A stretch of 64,000 bases of DNA from Candidatus Poribacteria bacterium. GTDB taxonomy: Bacteria > Poribacteria > WGA-4E > PCPOR2b. Made by a program: the position numbers and the translations under genes. Numbering within the stretch: position 1 is the stretch's first letter; every line of letters begins with the position of its first letter. Below, piece after piece: positions 4,740 to 62,875 of the stretch. The stretch is from assembly GCA_022822005.1 (NCBI GenBank), contig JAJECO010000085.1, forward strand, positions 1-64,000. The letters run 5' to 3'. The notes under the pieces were generated by a model. That model worked only from the letters and a program-made list of their open reading frames with translations. It was not told where the DNA came from and ran no database searches.

Positions 4740-4951
4740 TCCAGCAACGGTTTCGCTAAATGCTAAGTTGTCCAGAACGGGTGTTTTCCGATAATCTCAG
4801 AGTTGTGTCAATCCCTTTCGATTTTTCAAGTTGATTGAGGCATTCAAAACGCTTGTGGTCTATGGACCGAATGAATTTCATTTGGCAGTGATTCGTGTTA
4901 GATGCTATCTGACTCCGTCGAAATGTCAAAGAGCCTAAAGTGGGAGATCGT

Positions 4952-5803
4952 ATGGGTAAGCAGAACATCACTGAGTTTGATGGCTTAGATTTGGAACTAT
5001 TTTTTTGTACAGAAATCTTGAAATTGAACTCATTGCACTACGGATATTGGGAGGAAAGCGAAGAACTAACACAAAGTGATAAATTAACCCTTGAGTGTTT
5101 GCGAGATGGGCAGCAAAGATATACAGATATGCTCATGGCAATGATTCCTGAGAATGTGAAGAGTATTCTGGATGTCGGCTGTGGCATTGGCGATGTGTCG
5201 AGAGCACTCGCAAAGTTGGGATATAATGTAACTGCGATTTCACCGGATAGTAATCATGGAAAATATTTCGAGAACCATAGTCCAGGATTAACCTTCTTGC
5301 AGACAAAATTTGAAGACCTCGATATCGATGATAAGTTCAATTTAATTCTCATGAGTGAATCTCAGAACTATTTTCCAACTGAAATCGGGTTCCGTCGATG
5401 CGCTTCATACTTGTTACCTGAGGGATATTTACTTGTTGCAGGGATGTTTAGAAAAGACGACCGGTGTCAAATTGTGGAGATTCCCAATACCATTGAGGAT
5501 TATACAAAAATTGCTGAAAAGCACAGTCTCTTATTGATCGAAAGTGTTGATATAACTCGAAACATACTCCCGACTATCAATTTTATGTGCGAATCAATGC
5601 AGAATTATGTGGAGCCGGGTGTAAAGATGTTAAATCATTTTGTGTCATCAACCTCACCGCTAAAAACCTCGTTCATTAAATTCATCTTTCGGAAGCAGAT
5701 AAATAAGATCCTACAAATCTATAGTTATTATAGAAAAAAAATGGATCCGCTGCTTTTTACCAAGAATGTCGTCTACGCTAAACTCCTGTTCCAATTACAA
5801 TGA
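4952..5803 (+). CDS. SAM-dependent methyltransferase
   Basis: A 283-aa class I methyltransferase. The SAM-binding motif I is ILDVGCGIGDVSRALAKLG, followed by the acidic end of beta-2 (ISPDS). The N-terminus (LNSLHYGYW) resembles methyltransferases acting on small molecules or lipids. The start at ATG 4952 is preferred because GGGAG lies five bases upstream; GTG 4940 is an alternative. It precedes the serine palmitoyltransferase gene by about 210 bp on the same strand, so a role in lipid head-group or long-chain-base modification is possible but unproven. The C-terminal third is basic and shows no second recognisable domain. The flanking gaps 4740-4951 and 5804-6016 contain nothing I can support. 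Confidence 0.75.
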   Translation: MGKQNITEFDGLDLELFFCTEILKLNSLHYGYWEESEELTQSDKLTLECLRDGQQRYTDMLMAMIPENVKSILDVGCGIGDVSRALAKLGYNVTAISPDSNHGKYFENHSPGLTFLQTKFEDLDIDDKFNLILMSESQNYFPTEIGFRRCASYLLPEGYLLVAGMFRKDDRCQIVEIPNTIEDYTKIAEKHSLLLIESVDITRNILPTINFMCESMQNYVEPGVKMLNHFVSSTSPLKTSFIKFIFRKQINKILQIYSYYRKKMDPLLFTKNVVYAKLLFQLQ

Positions 5804-6016
5804 CTGGGTGCGGAACGTGAAAATTCTGCCAGTTTTCCTTTTATACCGCCCTCAGTTGCATTTGGGTATTCCCTTCTCACCAACGACAAGAAAACAGTTC
5901 TTCAATTCCGTCCCTACGCATTGCAACTGATTGGGTTAGAACCTTGATTTAGAAACGTTGGAAGAATTGTATACCTTCCACATGTTCGACGCATAGCACA
6001 TCAGGAGTGTCGATGA

Positions 6017-7222
6017 ATGGATATATTTGAAAAATGCTACGATTTTAGCAATGGCATTAGCACACGCGGACAAGAATATAAAGCAGTAGTCGAAGCAGGC
6101 ATCTATCCTTATTTCATTCCAATCGAGTCCTCCGCAGATACAGAAATCGTAATCAATGGCAAGAAAAAGGTGATGATCGGATCGAATAACTACCTCGGCC
6201 TGACACATCACCCTAAAGTCCTCGAAGCTGCTGAGATAGCTGGTAGAAAGTATGGTTCTGGCTGTACAGGCAGCCGGTTTTTGAACGGAACGCTCGACAT
6301 CCATATTGCGCTTGAAGAAGCACTCGCGGAGTTTGTTCACAAAGAAGCCGCACTGGTTTTTAGCACCGGATTTCAAGTCAACTTAGGTGTTATTGATACC
6401 CTCGTAGGACGTAGAAACATCGCTTTCATCGATTCATTGAGTCATGCGTGCGTTGTTGATGGATGCCGCCTCTCGTGGGGCGAGATGATTAGGTTCCGAC
6501 ACAACGACATGGAGGATCTGGATAGCAAATTGGAAAATGCTGCTCCTGAGCGAGAGAAACTGATTGTCGTTGAGGGAGTTTACAGTATGGAAGGCGATCT
6601 TGGTGACCTCCCAAGTGTGGTAGAAGTAGTTCGGAAACATCGGTGTCGATTAATGGTTGACGACGCACACGGCGTTGGTGTCCTCGGTCCAACCGGTGCC
6701 GGCACCGCTGAACACTTTGGGGTCGAGGAGGACGTTGATCTGATTATGGGGACCTTCAGCAAGTCTTTTGCGTGTATCGGTGGATTTATCGCTGCAGAAG
6801 CTGCTGTCATCGATTACTTGAAACACCACACAAACACCTTCCTTTTTAGCGCAAGTATGCCACCATCAGCGGTTGCAACCGTCCATGCCGCCTTAGAAAT
6901 CATCAAGATTGAGCCGGAACGACGCAAGCGATTGTGGGAAAATGCACGAAGGATGCAGGAAACTCTCCGATTAATGGGTTATGACATCGGAGACACACAA
7001 ACGCCAGTTGTTCCTGTAATCGTGGGTGATGATATGAATACCTTCTTGCTATGGAAACACCTGTTCGATGAGGGTGTTTTCACGAATCCTGTTGTCAGTC
7101 CAGCGGTGCCTTCCGGTGGTTCACGCCTACGCACCAGTTATATGGCAAGCCACACCGATGAACAGCTTGACTTTGTCCTTGAAAAATTTGATAAGGTCGG
7201 CAGAAAATTGGGCATGATCTAA
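6017..7222 (+). CDS. spt: Serine palmitoyltransferase (alpha-oxoamine synthase)
   Basis: A 401-aa PLP enzyme of the alpha-oxoamine synthase family, which condenses an amino acid with an acyl-CoA. Visible family features are SNNYLGL (56-62), GSRFLNGTLDIH (85-96), the PLP-stacking His143, the DDAHG motif at 215-219 and the Schiff-base Lys249 in GTFSKSF. The sequence GIYPYFIPIES near the N-terminus, the HHTNTFLFSAS stretch and FTNPVVSPAVP near the C-terminus match, from memory, soluble bacterial serine palmitoyltransferases (Bacteroides type) better than AONS (biotin) or threonine-pathway KBL. The product would be 3-ketosphinganine, the first step of sphingolipid synthesis. The next gene is a GNAT acyltransferase 38 bp downstream. 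Confidence 0.82.
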   Translation: MDIFEKCYDFSNGISTRGQEYKAVVEAGIYPYFIPIESSADTEIVINGKKKVMIGSNNYLGLTHHPKVLEAAEIAGRKYGSGCTGSRFLNGTLDIHIALEEALAEFVHKEAALVFSTGFQVNLGVIDTLVGRRNIAFIDSLSHACVVDGCRLSWGEMIRFRHNDMEDLDSKLENAAPEREKLIVVEGVYSMEGDLGDLPSVVEVVRKHRCRLMVDDAHGVGVLGPTGAGTAEHFGVEEDVDLIMGTFSKSFACIGGFIAAEAAVIDYLKHHTNTFLFSASMPPSAVATVHAALEIIKIEPERRKRLWENARRMQETLRLMGYDIGDTQTPVVPVIVGDDMNTFLLWKHLFDEGVFTNPVVSPAVPSGGSRLRTSYMASHTDEQLDFVLEKFDKVGRKLGMI

Positions 7223-7260
7223 AGACCGACTTTTCTAAAACATAGGTGATTTTTCAAAAA

Positions 7261-8403
7261 ATGCGTTCCAGTAGGCAATCCTCTGAGATTGATGTTACTC
7301 CTATCCAGTCCCCCGCTGATCTAAGAGCATTCATCAAACTACCTTGGACAATCTATCGTAACGATCCCTACTGGGTCCCACCCTTACGCAGCGATCTCAA
7401 GAAACGCCTTGATAAATCCCGGTATCCCTTCTTTGACCATGCCGAAGCCGAATTTCTGATAGCGCGACGGAAAGGGCGTGTTGTAGGGCGAATTGTTGCC
7501 ATCAAAAATGATGCCCATAACGACTTCCACAAAGAACAGGTTGGCTTTTTTGGATTTTTTGAGTCTATTGAAGATTCAGACGTCGCAGCGGCGCTGTTTT
7601 CCCACGCCGCTCAATGGTTGCGGGAATGCAAACTCGAAGTCATGCGCGGTCCCGTGAACTACTCAACAAACGATGATTGTGGGTTGCTTGTTGATGGCTT
7701 TGATTCCTCTCCCATGATTCTGATGTCGTATAATCCACCTTACTACTCCGATCTCGTTGATGGGTTTGGCTTCAAGAAGGCAAAGGATCTGCTCGCGTAC
7801 GAAATAACTGATGAAGTACAGGTGCCTGAACGCCTTGAACGGACAGTGCAATGGATAAAAAAGCGCAAAAAAATCACAATACGGCCTCTCGTCAAAAAAC
7901 AGATCCATCAGGAAATTCAGCATTTCAAAGAAATCTATAATGCTGCGTGGAAGCAGAATTGGGGTTTTGTGCCAATGACGGGCAGAGAGATTGATTACAT
8001 GGCACGCGAGCTAATCCAGATCATCGACCCTGATCTGCTCCTGTTTGCCGAAGTTGAAGGGGAACCTGTCGCCTTTATCCTTGCGCTGCCTGATTTTTAT
8101 GTTGCACTAAAGCATATCAACGGACGCCTATTTCCCTTCGGAGTTCTCAAACTTCTCTGGCATAAGCGCAAAATTGACACAGCTCGGGTGATAACGTTTG
8201 GGATCAAGGAAGCCTACCGCGAACAGGGAATTGATGCGCTGATGTACTACGAAGTGTATAATATTGGGGTTGCCAAGGGATATCGCCGAGGGGAAATGTC
8301 GTGGGTTTTGGAAGATAATACATTGATGAATCGTGCGCTCGAAAACATGGGCGCGACACTTTATAAACGCTACCGCCTCTACGATTATCCGTTGTCACAA
8401 TAA
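7261..8403 (+). CDS. GNAT-fold acyltransferase, candidate bacterial ceramide synthase
   Basis: A 380-aa protein. It has an N-terminal region starting with DPYWVPPLRSD and a GNAT-like core (AEAEFLIARRKGRVVGRIVAI). The C-terminal half contains a second GNAT-like fold ending in MNRALENMGATLYKRYRLY. This architecture is common among proteins next to serine palmitoyltransferase genes. The ATG at 7261 follows AGGTGA; an in-frame GTG at 7246 is possible. The gene lies directly downstream of spt and is probably cotranscribed. My inference is N-acylation of a long-chain base to (dihydro)ceramide, by analogy with the convergent bacterial ceramide synthase described in Caulobacter. The acyl donor and substrate are not readable from sequence, and it could be another N-acyltransferase. 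Confidence 0.6.
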   Translation: MRSSRQSSEIDVTPIQSPADLRAFIKLPWTIYRNDPYWVPPLRSDLKKRLDKSRYPFFDHAEAEFLIARRKGRVVGRIVAIKNDAHNDFHKEQVGFFGFFESIEDSDVAAALFSHAAQWLRECKLEVMRGPVNYSTNDDCGLLVDGFDSSPMILMSYNPPYYSDLVDGFGFKKAKDLLAYEITDEVQVPERLERTVQWIKKRKKITIRPLVKKQIHQEIQHFKEIYNAAWKQNWGFVPMTGREIDYMARELIQIIDPDLLLFAEVEGEPVAFILALPDFYVALKHINGRLFPFGVLKLLWHKRKIDTARVITFGIKEAYREQGIDALMYYEVYNIGVAKGYRRGEMSWVLEDNTLMNRALENMGATLYKRYRLYDYPLSQ

Positions 8404-13497: not shown

Positions 13498-15156
13498 TCA
13501 AGGAATAATAGGCATTACGCAACGAAAACTGATATGGGGATAAGTGCTCATTGGATGAGCATTAGAGCGATCGGCGATCCGCGCGTACCCGTATCCATCA
13601 TACCATGATCCACCGCGCAGCACACGATCTCCTTTAACGCGTTGTCCTTCAAAGCTTATCAAACCATCTATAGGCTGAATGCTATCTCCCCTTGCAATTG
13701 AATCTGTTGCAATCGGATTCTCACGTGGGGAATTTTCATAAAAATACCGATCATACTCGTCAAGGCACCACTCCCACACCCGATCCGCCATACCGTAGAG
13801 TCCATAGGGATTGGGTGCGGCTATCCCCATAGGTGTCCATACAAGGAATTTCTGACCTACCAAGCCGCCCCGTGCTGCTTTCTCCCACTCTGCCTCCGTT
13901 GGCAAACGCTTGCCTGCCCACTCCGCGTATGCCATTGCAGCATACCAACTCACATAAACAACAGGGTGATTCCCTTTACCACTCGGGTAGCTGTTTCCAT
14001 GCCAGTGTGTTAAGTAATGGCTATCGTAGTACTTACCATAACTACGGCTTTTTCTCCACTCCGGATTTGCGTCAACAAACTTCTTATACTGTGCATTTGT
14101 CACCTCGTGTATATCTATATAAAAAGCATCAAGGTAGACTATATGCACAGGATTCTCATCGGGGTGGGCATCTCTGTCGCTGCTTCCCATCTTAAACTCA
14201 CCCCCAAGGATAGGCACCATTTTCGCCCCATCCTTTCCAACAATCTGTTTCAGCCAGTCTATTTCTTTGCCCGATGTAATTTTGCGACCCTGAAACACAA
14301 AAACAAAATCCCCTCGATTGAACTTTGGATCATTGATTTTGCCATATTGTGGGGGTTGGATGTGCTTGTACTCTGGGACATGGTGATTTAGATGCAGCCC
14401 CAACTCTTCGGCGGTAATGTAACCATCCGGAATCGGCTCGGCAACCCGCCCTTCCAATAAATCCAGAAATGCTGCCTTAAGTCGACTATAGTTGGGCATC
14501 GGTTCATTGGCACGACCTGCGATGATAAACTGTCTTGCAGGATATTTGACGCTATCCTGAACGGTGCACGGTTGCGGACGATTCTGAACGTTGAGAACGC
14601 TATCAGAAAAACTACTGTCGAACAGATATAGCACATGGAGCGCTTCAATCTGTTTTGCTCCTTCTGCTAGTGATCGTATGCTTACGTTTCGACTTGCGTC
14701 GATTTTGCAGGTTGCCATTGGCATAGGGGAGTCTACCATGACGAGATAGCCAAATTCTTCGTCCGTTTGCTTATTGATTTCCGTATGACCGTGGCCCTCA
14801 TAGTAAAAAAGGAGACGGCTATTTTTACCTGTTCCGTTTCTGATGAACGTCTCAAACACAGCGTCAAAATCAACCTTCTTGAGATTAGTTTTCAGTGTTA
14901 CAGTAAAGCCGTGCTTTCCGAGCGCGGTAGCAACATCTCTTACATCTTTGAGAACGCTATCAAGTGGAGCCCAGCCGTTTGTATAGCTGCCGTTTCCGAC
15001 GACGAGGGCATAGGATTCATTGTAGAGGGGGATTTCTCCAGCTCCGGTCTGGACGCTAATTTTCATGCTGTGTCGCCAAAACAATTTATTGATGCTAATA
15101 AAAACAAGGGCAACACAGAGAATCCCTAACAGTAGAAATAACGAGATCTTTTTCAC
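13498..15156 (-). CDS. Caspase-fold/FGE-fold fusion protein lacking the catalytic cysteine
   Basis: A 552-aa protein with an N-terminal signal or membrane anchor (about 5-22), a caspase-like C14 domain (about 45-290) and a formylglycine-generating-enzyme/sulfatase-modifying-factor domain (about 312-552). The caspase His is present (YEGHG, His122). The position of the nucleophile in the usual D-[AS]-C-F-S-G motif reads D-S-S-F-S-D, so Ser182 (AGT, codon at 14611-14613) replaces Cys, a single-base change from TGT. The FGE part keeps [19 protein letters not shown] and GGSW...SFRC. It lacks about 20-30 residues between GLVGQK and the PNPYGLY segment, including the usual PWG. Probably a non-catalytic recognition or scaffold protein anchored to the membrane. 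Confidence 0.85.
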
Positions 15157-60389: not shown

Positions 60390-61610
60390 CTAAAACCCCA
60401 TCAAACCGCAGCAGCGGCGACACACAGGCATAGGGCCATCACTACTGATGGAATTGCGGAACTTGCGGGCGGCGGCGTTATTCCACATATCTTCGACAGC
60501 ATCCGTTTTGATGTTGCCGATGATGTAATCGTGGTAGTCACGGCAGAGGCTAACGTCGCCGTTGCTGTCAATTTCCATTGTCATGTAAATGCTGATACAC
60601 TGATTGTAACCAAAAGACTCCGCGTGATCAGTGTAGTATCGCTGGATCTCCTCTGGTGTATTAAGCCTCGGCATCATCATCGGTGGACACCGCTCTGTCT
60701 CTTTAGAAAATTTCTCCATCTCTTCAAACTTATCGAGAATGACACCATGATCGAAATCCTTCCACGTACCGATCCAACCGTAATGGGTTTGGGGCTTAAA
60801 ACCGAAACGGCTCTCAAAATCTTCGGTGTGTGCCTGTGCGGAATGTGAATCGATCCACCACGTTAGGTAGAAGATCTGTGTATCTGCATACTGGTTCGTG
60901 AATTTGTAGAGATCCACTACGTAGTCGATATTGTACATCGTAATACAACTGAGCGGGACGATATACGGAAATGCAAGATTCCGACGCTTCTTCGCTTCGC
61001 TTAGCGTTTCAAGTGCTTCCTTTACGTCCTTAAAGTTATCATAATTCTCTGAAACCCCAGGACGTTGACCATTGTGAATTTCTTCGTTGGGGCCATCAAC
61101 GCTCAAGTAAAGAATTTTGCATGTCTCAATAATGTCATCGGCGCGTCTGGCGAGATGGGTGCCGTTCGTCACGAGCGAAATTGGCATGTCCCGCTCTTTG
61201 ATATAATGCAGCAATTCAATCAAACCGGGGTAGAGCATCGGCTCACCGCCCCAGATATACCACACAGGCGACCAGCCAGCATCAACAATCTGGTCAACAA
61301 GTCGTTTATAGGTTTCGACCGGGACCTCCCGCTGCTTCAATGATTTGAGGGATTCGCCATGCAGGTATCCGTTATCTCCCCACTGCCCACAGGAATGGCA
61401 GCGTAGGTTGCACATATCCGTGATTCGTAGACTGACCAGTTGGACATCGTCGCCCTTGCCATGTTTAGCACCAAATGGATGTCTCCAATTAAAACTCTCC
61501 TTTGCCATCTGGTACTTCATGAGCGCGTAAGAGGTCGCCCAATCATCTGACATTGCCGTTGCAAGTTCATTCACAAAAAAACGAGGTGAAACACGACTTC
61601 GAATTGCCAT
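60390..61610 (-). CDS. Radical SAM/SPASM domain protein
   Basis: A 406-aa radical SAM enzyme. The [4Fe-4S]-SAM motif is CNLRCHSC with Cys67, Cys71 and Cys74. The C-terminal SPASM-like region supplies further cysteines (YNQCISIY, VSLCRDYH, VCRRCCG). ATG 61610 with GAGGAAGG upstream is the start; an upstream extension to 61745 overlaps the glycosyltransferase gene and lacks support. Substrate unknown; such proteins modify peptides or mature cofactors. Probably in one unit with the glycosyltransferase gene. Confidence 0.87.
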   Translation of the reverse strand: MAIRSRVSPRFFVNELATAMSDDWATSYALMKYQMAKESFNWRHPFGAKHGKGDDVQLVSLRITDMCNLRCHSCGQWGDNGYLHGESLKSLKQREVPVETYKRLVDQIVDAGWSPVWYIWGGEPMLYPGLIELLHYIKERDMPISLVTNGTHLARRADDIIETCKILYLSVDGPNEEIHNGQRPGVSENYDNFKDVKEALETLSEAKKRRNLAFPYIVPLSCITMYNIDYVVDLYKFTNQYADTQIFYLTWWIDSHSAQAHTEDFESRFGFKPQTHYGWIGTWKDFDHGVILDKFEEMEKFSKETERCPPMMMPRLNTPEEIQRYYTDHAESFGYNQCISIYMTMEIDSNGDVSLCRDYHDYIIGNIKTDAVEDMWNNAAARKFRNSISSDGPMPVCRRCCGLMGF

Positions 61611-61669
61611 AACCTTCCTCTCTGTTACAGAAGTCAAATCAAATGTACTTATAACTCCTAAATGCCTAT

Positions 61670-62875
61670 TTACCCTTCTTCCGCGATCCGACCTAAAACA
61701 CGACACTTGGTGGCTGAAAGAATTTCGTATCGAACACCGCCCCATACAATCTTGTTTTGAAATAGCGCGTACACTGCGTTCAAGCCTGCAAGAAACATCG
61801 CTATTGGTACGACAAGCGCGGCGGTTCGGAGGGTCTCACGTATTTTAGGTGTGTCTCGCAGCCAACGGGGCAGGTTTCGTGAGAAGATGCGAAAACTCTG
61901 AATTTCAATAAATGGGACAAGGAGAACAAGAAGAAATCTCTCAGAATAGAATATCATGAACGGAATTGAGCCGAGCACAAGTAAAGCCTTTGGCAGAAGT
62001 ATCAGCAAGGTCCCCCACCACTGAGCTTTAAGCCCCATCCGAAAGGTCATTACTATTTGACGGTTAGTAAACTCTATAATCTGTTTCCAGGTTCGTTTCT
62101 CCGTGTGGGTAACTGCAATGCAATCCGGCACAAAATGAACCTTGCGTTTCAGATCTCTCACCGTATGCGTCAAATTATGATCTTCAATGGTTGCATTCTC
62201 CCAACGTTGCAATACTTTACCTTGTTCGAAGGCTTCTCGACGGATTGCGTTTGAACCACCCCAAACCATTGCCAGTGGGTGATCGCCTTGTAACGCAATC
62301 TGAAAGTTGATCCAAACTGCTTCGACAAGCGATGCCGTGTTTAAGGTATGTGGAAAATAAAATCTCGCCCCCACTGTTGCACCGACGTTTTCGTCCTGAA
62401 GCGGCTGGACGAGCAGCCTCAACCAATCTTGCTCGATCGTCGCATCCGCATCGACAAAAGCGATAATCTCAACATCATTCGAAAACGTCGCGATTGCCGT
62501 CATCAGATTCTGCACCTTTTGCGAGCGTGGGAGTGAGTTATCCACAATGTTCGGTGCCAGCAGGGTATGCACGTTGGGATGCCCTTCCGCGATCTCGAGT
62601 AGGTGTGGATAGGATTCATCATAGCCGGATTCACCCATAGCGTGCGTAACAAAAAATACCTCATACTCGCCTGCGTAATCCTGATTTAGCAGCCGTTTCA
62701 CATTCTCTGCTGTCTGATCATCCCAGCCATAATGGGGTGCGATGATGGCAGTTTTTGGAGTATAATCTGATCTTTTGGTATTTCGTTCTCGGCGTGCATA
62801 TCGGAATGAGTTGATGATTATTAGTACTTCTAAAATAAGGACGAGGTAAACTGCTCCAATAATGTATGAGATCAT
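61670..62875 (-). CDS. Membrane family-2-type glycosyltransferase
   Basis: A 401-aa integral membrane GT-A protein. One N-terminal helix (about 3-22) anchors it, and the catalytic domain carries the DAD motif (Asp142, Asp144). The ED motif IEDHN (231-234) is the general-base candidate. Two or three C-terminal helices follow (about 275-345), as in processive or ceramide-type glucosyltransferases (GT2/GT21). GT21 enzymes have a QxxRW motif that I do not see clearly. A glycolipid role would fit with the spt gene elsewhere in the window, but this is speculative. Confidence 0.8.
   Translation of the reverse strand: MISYIIGAVYLVLILEVLIIINSFRYARRERNTKRSDYTPKTAIIAPHYGWDDQTAENVKRLLNQDYAGEYEVFFVTHAMGESGYDESYPHLLEIAEGHPNVHTLLAPNIVDNSLPRSQKVQNLMTAIATFSNDVEIIAFVDADATIEQDWLRLLVQPLQDENVGATVGARFYFPHTLNTASLVEAVWINFQIALQGDHPLAMVWGGSNAIRREAFEQGKVLQRWENATIEDHNLTHTVRDLKRKVHFVPDCIAVTHTEKRTWKQIIEFTNRQIVMTFRMGLKAQWWGTLLILLPKALLVLGSIPFMIFYSERFLLVLLVPFIEIQSFRIFSRNLPRWLRDTPKIRETLRTAALVVPIAMFLAGLNAVYALFQNKIVWGGVRYEILSATKCRVLGRIAEEG

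Follow-up and report, generated by a model that had tools for sequence, protein, structure and literature searches.

The ceramide genes of Caulobacter crescentus and Escherichia coli B are spt, acpR, cerR, aasR and cerS, corresponding to CC_1162-1165 and CC_1154, with yghO (ECD_02850) as the E. coli B counterpart of the last. We take CC_1154 to be identical to bCerS. The annotated cluster of E. coli E89 (L106:3500-9103) runs from spt through genes for an acyl carrier protein, an NAD-dependent epimerase (cerR) and a fatty acyl-AMP ligase (aasR) to yghO. In E. coli K-12 MG1655 (L085) an IS5 element lies at the yghO end, and the stretch that was read carries no annotation for spt, acp, cerR or aasR. 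YghO was described as the CC_1154 ortholog, and CC_1154 as one of five genes that dihydroceramide formation requires (PMC9386255); CC_1154 was designated CerS (PMC11324152). Spt-like genes were reported in 40 phyla by a Black Sea survey (PMC11334938), which does not name Poribacteria in its main text. A literature search found no paper naming both Poribacteria and serine palmitoyltransferase.

Poribacteria are uncultured bacteria, best known as sponge symbionts. The stretch of 64,000 nt analysed here (the window) corresponds to contig C18 in a Candidatus Poribacteria genome of 6.0 Mb that is 97.8% complete. Among named records, those closest to it are Candidatus Poribacteria MAGs in which synteny is conserved and SPT is 72-97% identical to that of the window. 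As listed in Table 1, spt is followed by a gene for a GNAT protein, and the three-gene bacterial ceramide set (spt, bcerS, cerR) is present in this one genome, with cerR outside the spt-cerS operon. Both genes of the pair are as the first-pass annotation had described them: the first encodes all PLP-binding and catalytic residues of alpha-oxoamine synthases, and the second scores above the Pfam GNAT cut-off. The gap of 38 bp given for the pair is correct if translation of the second gene starts at the alternative ATG. A scan of the window for RNA families of Rfam gave none, and a scan for promoters and terminators gave results close to the expectation from shuffled sequence.

Table 1. Position of the predicted ceramide genes and of neighbouring features
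Feature	Position	Strand	Description
Methyltransferase	4940-5803		Upstream of spt
Intergenic stretch	5804-6016	+	213 bp; site of mlaE-mlaF-mlaD in most relatives
Shine-Dalgarno-like AGGAG	6003-6007	+	9 nt before the SPT start codon; read from sequence
spt (serine palmitoyltransferase)	6017-7222	+	401 aa, ATG start; assigned by NCBIfam, PDB, active-site alignment and tree
cerS/bcerS (tandem-GNAT ceramide synthase, CC_1154/YghO family)	7246-8403	+	385 aa from GTG; alternative ATG at 7261
Glycosyltransferase (GT)	61670-62875		
cerR (CerR-family reductase)	G000:C4:87684-88679		On contig C4 of the host genome (G000)

Assignment of the first enzyme

The best NCBIfam models for the first gene product were two SPT models (536 and 425 bits) and a BioF/Kbl subfamily model (405 bits), followed by bioF (390 bits) and glycine C-acetyltransferase (Kbl; 383 and 309 bits). 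These scores are under every curated cut-off, which are 640 and 500 bits for the two SPT models, 426 bits for bioF, and 460 and 493 bits for Kbl. The label Bacteroides-type SPT given earlier was not retained, since the best score lies below the cut-off of NF047600 (640 bits), and we regard the protein as an SPT of its own branch. Searching the PDB resulted in 421 bits for the Sphingobacterium SPT, 314–332 bits for proteobacterial SPTs, 269 bits for SulA, 254–268 bits for KBL and about 210 bits for BioF.

For an active-site alignment we used the S. multivorum SPT sequence contained in the PDB search alignment, which shares 50.4% identity with the window SPT; the residues that hold PLP and the serine carboxylate in this enzyme were described previously (PMC10196870). 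Asn57, His143, Asp215, Ala217, His218, Lys249 and Arg372 are all conserved in the window SPT, and among them are the PLP lysine (K249 in GTFSKS), the His that stacks on PLP, the Asp-x-Ala-His motif and the Arg for the carboxylate. Only two differences were seen among the residues checked: Met271, a backbone contact in S. multivorum, is replaced by Leu276, and Ala79, a water-mediated contact on the substrate side, is replaced by Thr84. The latter exchange bears on the view that the product is a variant sphingoid lipid, such as 1-deoxyceramide from alanine or a lipid on another amino-acid base, as in the lysine-based ceramide that has been hypothesised for the Black Sea. Alanine and glycine are used slowly by SPTs (PMC10196870), and alternative amino acids have been proposed for Spt-like enzymes (PMC11334938). 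However, a Thr is also found at the Thr84-equivalent position of E. coli Spt, for which SPT activity is reported (PMC9386255), and the residues that contact serine are otherwise conserved. A product of this kind is therefore unlikely in our view.

A single residue is known to part SulA from SPT, being Lys281 in SulA and Ala in SPT, while the two active sites are otherwise almost alike (PMC9304779). This similarity, and the fact that capnine could also be acylated by a GNAT, would allow the pair to make a sulfonolipid of the capnine type, with SulA acting as cysteate acyltransferase before N-acylation. The window SPT has Ala279 at the switch position, where the alignment shows Asn in KBL and Thr in BioF, and the SulA in the PDB scored about 150 bits under the best SPT; we regard sulfonolipid formation as highly improbable.

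In a mixture-model tree the window SPT fell into a clade (support 100/100) with the SPTs of S. multivorum and E. coli, which represent two characterised lineages; outside this clade lay the KBL and BioF of both E. coli and the host genome. Forcing the window SPT together with KBL/BioF was rejected (AU test, p = 1.4e-6), and a quick tree of 84 rows agreed on the SPT placement; in these trees the non-SPT outgroup is small and long-branched. The host genome holds separate BioF and KBL genes, each scoring above its own cut-off, and the BioF and KBL roles are therefore already filled. Thus, although the fold and most catalytic residues are common to all alpha-oxoamine synthases and generic BioF/KBL models also match the protein, a KBL or BioF of threonine or biotin metabolism with an unrelated GNAT neighbour is exceedingly unlikely in view of the rejected placement, the separate host paralogs, the Asn or Thr that these enzymes have at the Ala279 position, and the linkage of SPT to CerS across phyla. 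Placement inside the KBL or BioF clades had been named beforehand as the outcome that would speak against an SPT, and the opposite was found. The first gene of the pair is thus predicted with confidence to encode a serine palmitoyltransferase.

The predicted N-acyltransferase and the remote reductase

Pfam detected a GNAT domain only in the C-terminal part of the second gene product, and a PDB sequence search with CerS gave zero matches. An AlphaFold model built with 30 sequences (pLDDT 90.8, pTM 0.88) matched tandem-GNAT structures of the PDB from end to end (E about 1e-15, TM about 0.6–0.7), and therefore both halves of CerS are GNAT-like. CerS aligns with E. coli YghO across about 96% of its length at 35–37% identity. 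The link to Caulobacter CC_1154 was made via E. coli YghO and the published ortholog table, with YghO, Spt and CerR of E. coli serving as references. The protein belongs to this ceramide synthase family, and by its sequence the second enzyme is predicted to be a CC_1154/YghO-type N-ACYLTRANSFERASE. Its proposal as a candidate N-acyltransferase of the long-chain base thus holds as a predicted function. The suggestion that ceramide could be formed without the classical eukaryotic enzyme is borne out insofar as a bacterial-type ceramide synthase is present, but this is no peculiarity of the locus, being the standard bacterial route.

It had also been noted that no reductase for 3-ketosphinganine lies adjacent. 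None was found beside the pair, but one is encoded elsewhere in the genome, on contig C4. With a CerR that adjoins spt in another phylum as query, this protein was matched over residues 1-324 with 40% identity (E 7e-79), while the runner-up reached E 2e-17. It is an extended SDR with intact GxxGxxG and YxxxK motifs; the SDR superfamily is broad, and its identification as CerR builds on full-length similarity and co-occurrence. A gene for an LPG_synthase_TM/flippase-like protein (L104:6525-7646) is located about 40 bp upstream of cerR, and was kept in all family members checked as well as in a sister family in which CerR is decayed. Caulobacter CerR was reported to be periplasmic (PMC11087976). 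A flippase gene beside cerR would fit acylation before reduction.

We consider it highly likely that spt encodes the enzyme of the first committed step and cerS the N-acyltransferase in a bacterial ceramide pathway, and that the remote CerR completes a dihydroceramide route. Family membership, intact catalytic residues, linkage of the genes across phyla, and their joint inheritance and decay within Poribacteria are shown here; what we infer as to substrates, sequence of the acylation and reduction steps, and product is as follows. SPT would join L-serine and a long-chain acyl thioester in a condensation that yields 3-ketosphinganine, the tandem-GNAT enzyme of the YghO/CC_1154 type would N-acylate the long-chain base, and the CerR-family reductase would reduce the 3-keto group, resulting in dihydroceramide. 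Since no dedicated AasR/AcpR pair was seen, acyl-CoA or housekeeping acyl-ACP would be the likely acyl donor. Neither gene was found adjacent to spt, and the best AasR-like match in the host genome had 28% identity (E 4e-24). The organism very probably makes ceramide-type membrane lipids.

Gene linkage, co-inheritance and the region upstream of spt

We fetched 80 related loci by SPT similarity alone. Among the 70 loci from outside the Poribacteria with a called SPT gene, a CerS family member was present within two genes in 26, a CerR family member in 29, both in 13 and at least one of them in 42. In related loci, operon-like distances of −4 to +10 bp often separate spt and cerS. The pairing of SPT with the GNAT protein in 26/70 of these loci is far from chance.

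Within the Poribacteria, an SPT of the window type was found in 13 of 85 genomes, applying at least 58% identity and more than 500 bits; weaker matches (31–40% identity) behave like the host KBL and BioF. CerR was present in all 13 SPT-positive genomes (>250 bits) and CerS in 12, the exception being a genome of 61% completeness. Among the 72 SPT-negative genomes, CerS was found in two (G013 and G014) and CerR in two others, both incomplete. Fisher tests by genome gave p values of 1e-13 for CerR and 9e-12 for CerS, and by genus of 3e-5 and 4e-4, respectively; these values are descriptive only, as relatives are not independent. In a class relative within the Poribacteria (G012), spt, cerS and cerR are contiguous (L138), and its cerS contains one in-frame TAG that may be an assembly error.

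G013 and G014 form the sister family f2. Here the same two M16 neighbours are followed directly by CerS, and SPT is gone. Both genomes have a broken CerR, and the lesions differ, being an internal deletion in one and a frameshift with stops in the other; the flanking genes for the flippase, nadC and a dehydrogenase are kept. No remnants of SPT or mla were detected by tblastn at the deletion sites. As the absence of SPT is accompanied by decay of CerR, these two unlinked genes are linked in function. In the f2 loci (L145, L146, L147 and L148) CerS is intact without SPT, and such an orphan CerS may serve long-chain-base salvage.

A gene for MlaD (MCE) is located directly upstream of spt in seven genomes of family f1, preceded by genes for the MlaE permease and the ATPase wherever the locus was read. 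The order mlaE-mlaF-mlaD was seen at L004:4899-7938, L005, L006, L009 and L149 (genomes G015-G020 and G022). A relative of MlaD was found in 8 of the 85 Poribacteria genomes, every one of them SPT-positive. These three genes are absent from the window genome and from its closest relative (G021); in the window their site is the intergenic stretch listed in Table 1. The first half of this stretch resembles the spacer between the methyltransferase gene and mlaE of relatives, its end the spacer between mlaD and spt of L004, and in four of five comparisons the alignments exceeded all shuffles. Because the transporter genes occupy this position in genera g2, g3 and g4 of the same family, a clean loss from the window lineage is the simpler explanation. 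The putative transporter MlaE-MlaF-MlaD may have a role in sphingolipid transport. Among the papers listed by a literature search on MCE proteins and ceramide transport in bacteria, none was relevant. We put forward, as a speculation that we hold to be unlikely, that MlaE-MlaF-MlaD of Poribacteria is dedicated to moving sphingolipid between membranes, replacing the LptC2/F2/G2 proposed in Caulobacter; that the SPT-less sister lineages re-acylate external long-chain bases by CerS, for example from the sponge host; and that the window lineage has lost the transporter and kept the enzymes.

The first-pass annotation had considered the methyltransferase and the glycosyltransferase as possible later modifiers of the lipid. 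Both genes are present, but neither is specific to the pathway. The methyltransferase gene occurs, among the 85 genomes, only in the window's genus g1, so that it is ruled out as a core gene of the pathway; it is AT-rich (38% GC versus about 47% in its neighbours) and likely a recent acquisition. The GT gene is found in 70 of the 85 genomes, most of them SPT-negative, which gives no specific support for a sphingolipid glycosyltransferase; being nearly universal in the order, it probably has a core envelope or other function. A radical SAM gene overlaps this glycosyltransferase gene (60390-62875), whose product is of family 2/21 and HpnI-like below the cut-off. The minus strand at 13498-15156 encodes, as judged by eye, a fusion of caspase-like and formylglycine-generating-enzyme (SUMF1)-like domains.

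Comparison with known systems

A complete predicted ceramide pathway makes these bacteria a concrete candidate source for some of the sphingolipids in sponge tissue. Moreover, their relatives provide a natural series (pathway-intact, transporter-lost and enzyme-decayed) in which it can be tested which genes act together.

The kind of system is already known, ceramides being predicted for a growing number of bacterial phyla, and the window genome adds a member to it. The Black Sea survey drew the same inference from an Spt clade together with bCerS and CerR homologs (PMC11334938). The Bacteroidetes SPT (Sphingobacterium multivorum, 3A2B/8GUH; NF047600) has 50% identity to the window SPT and a near-identical active site, but the window SPT stands on a separate branch and under the NF047600 cut-off. 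Like Caulobacter and E. coli B, the host genome has an SPT, an N-acyltransferase of the YghO/CC_1154 type and a CerR-type reductase. Instead of lying in another operon, cerS directly follows spt in the window; cerR is remote, and the AasR/AcpR pair of the five-gene rhodobacterial system was not seen in the host. The spt-cerS(-cerR) clusters in MAGs of Nitrospirota, Zixiibacteriota, Elusimicrobiota, Myxococcota and Bacteroidota show the same order of spt and cerS and the same short spacing as the window, with CerS identities of mostly 37–49% and of 28% in two Flavobacteriales. In many of these clusters cerR is located directly upstream of spt, whereas in the window it is not.
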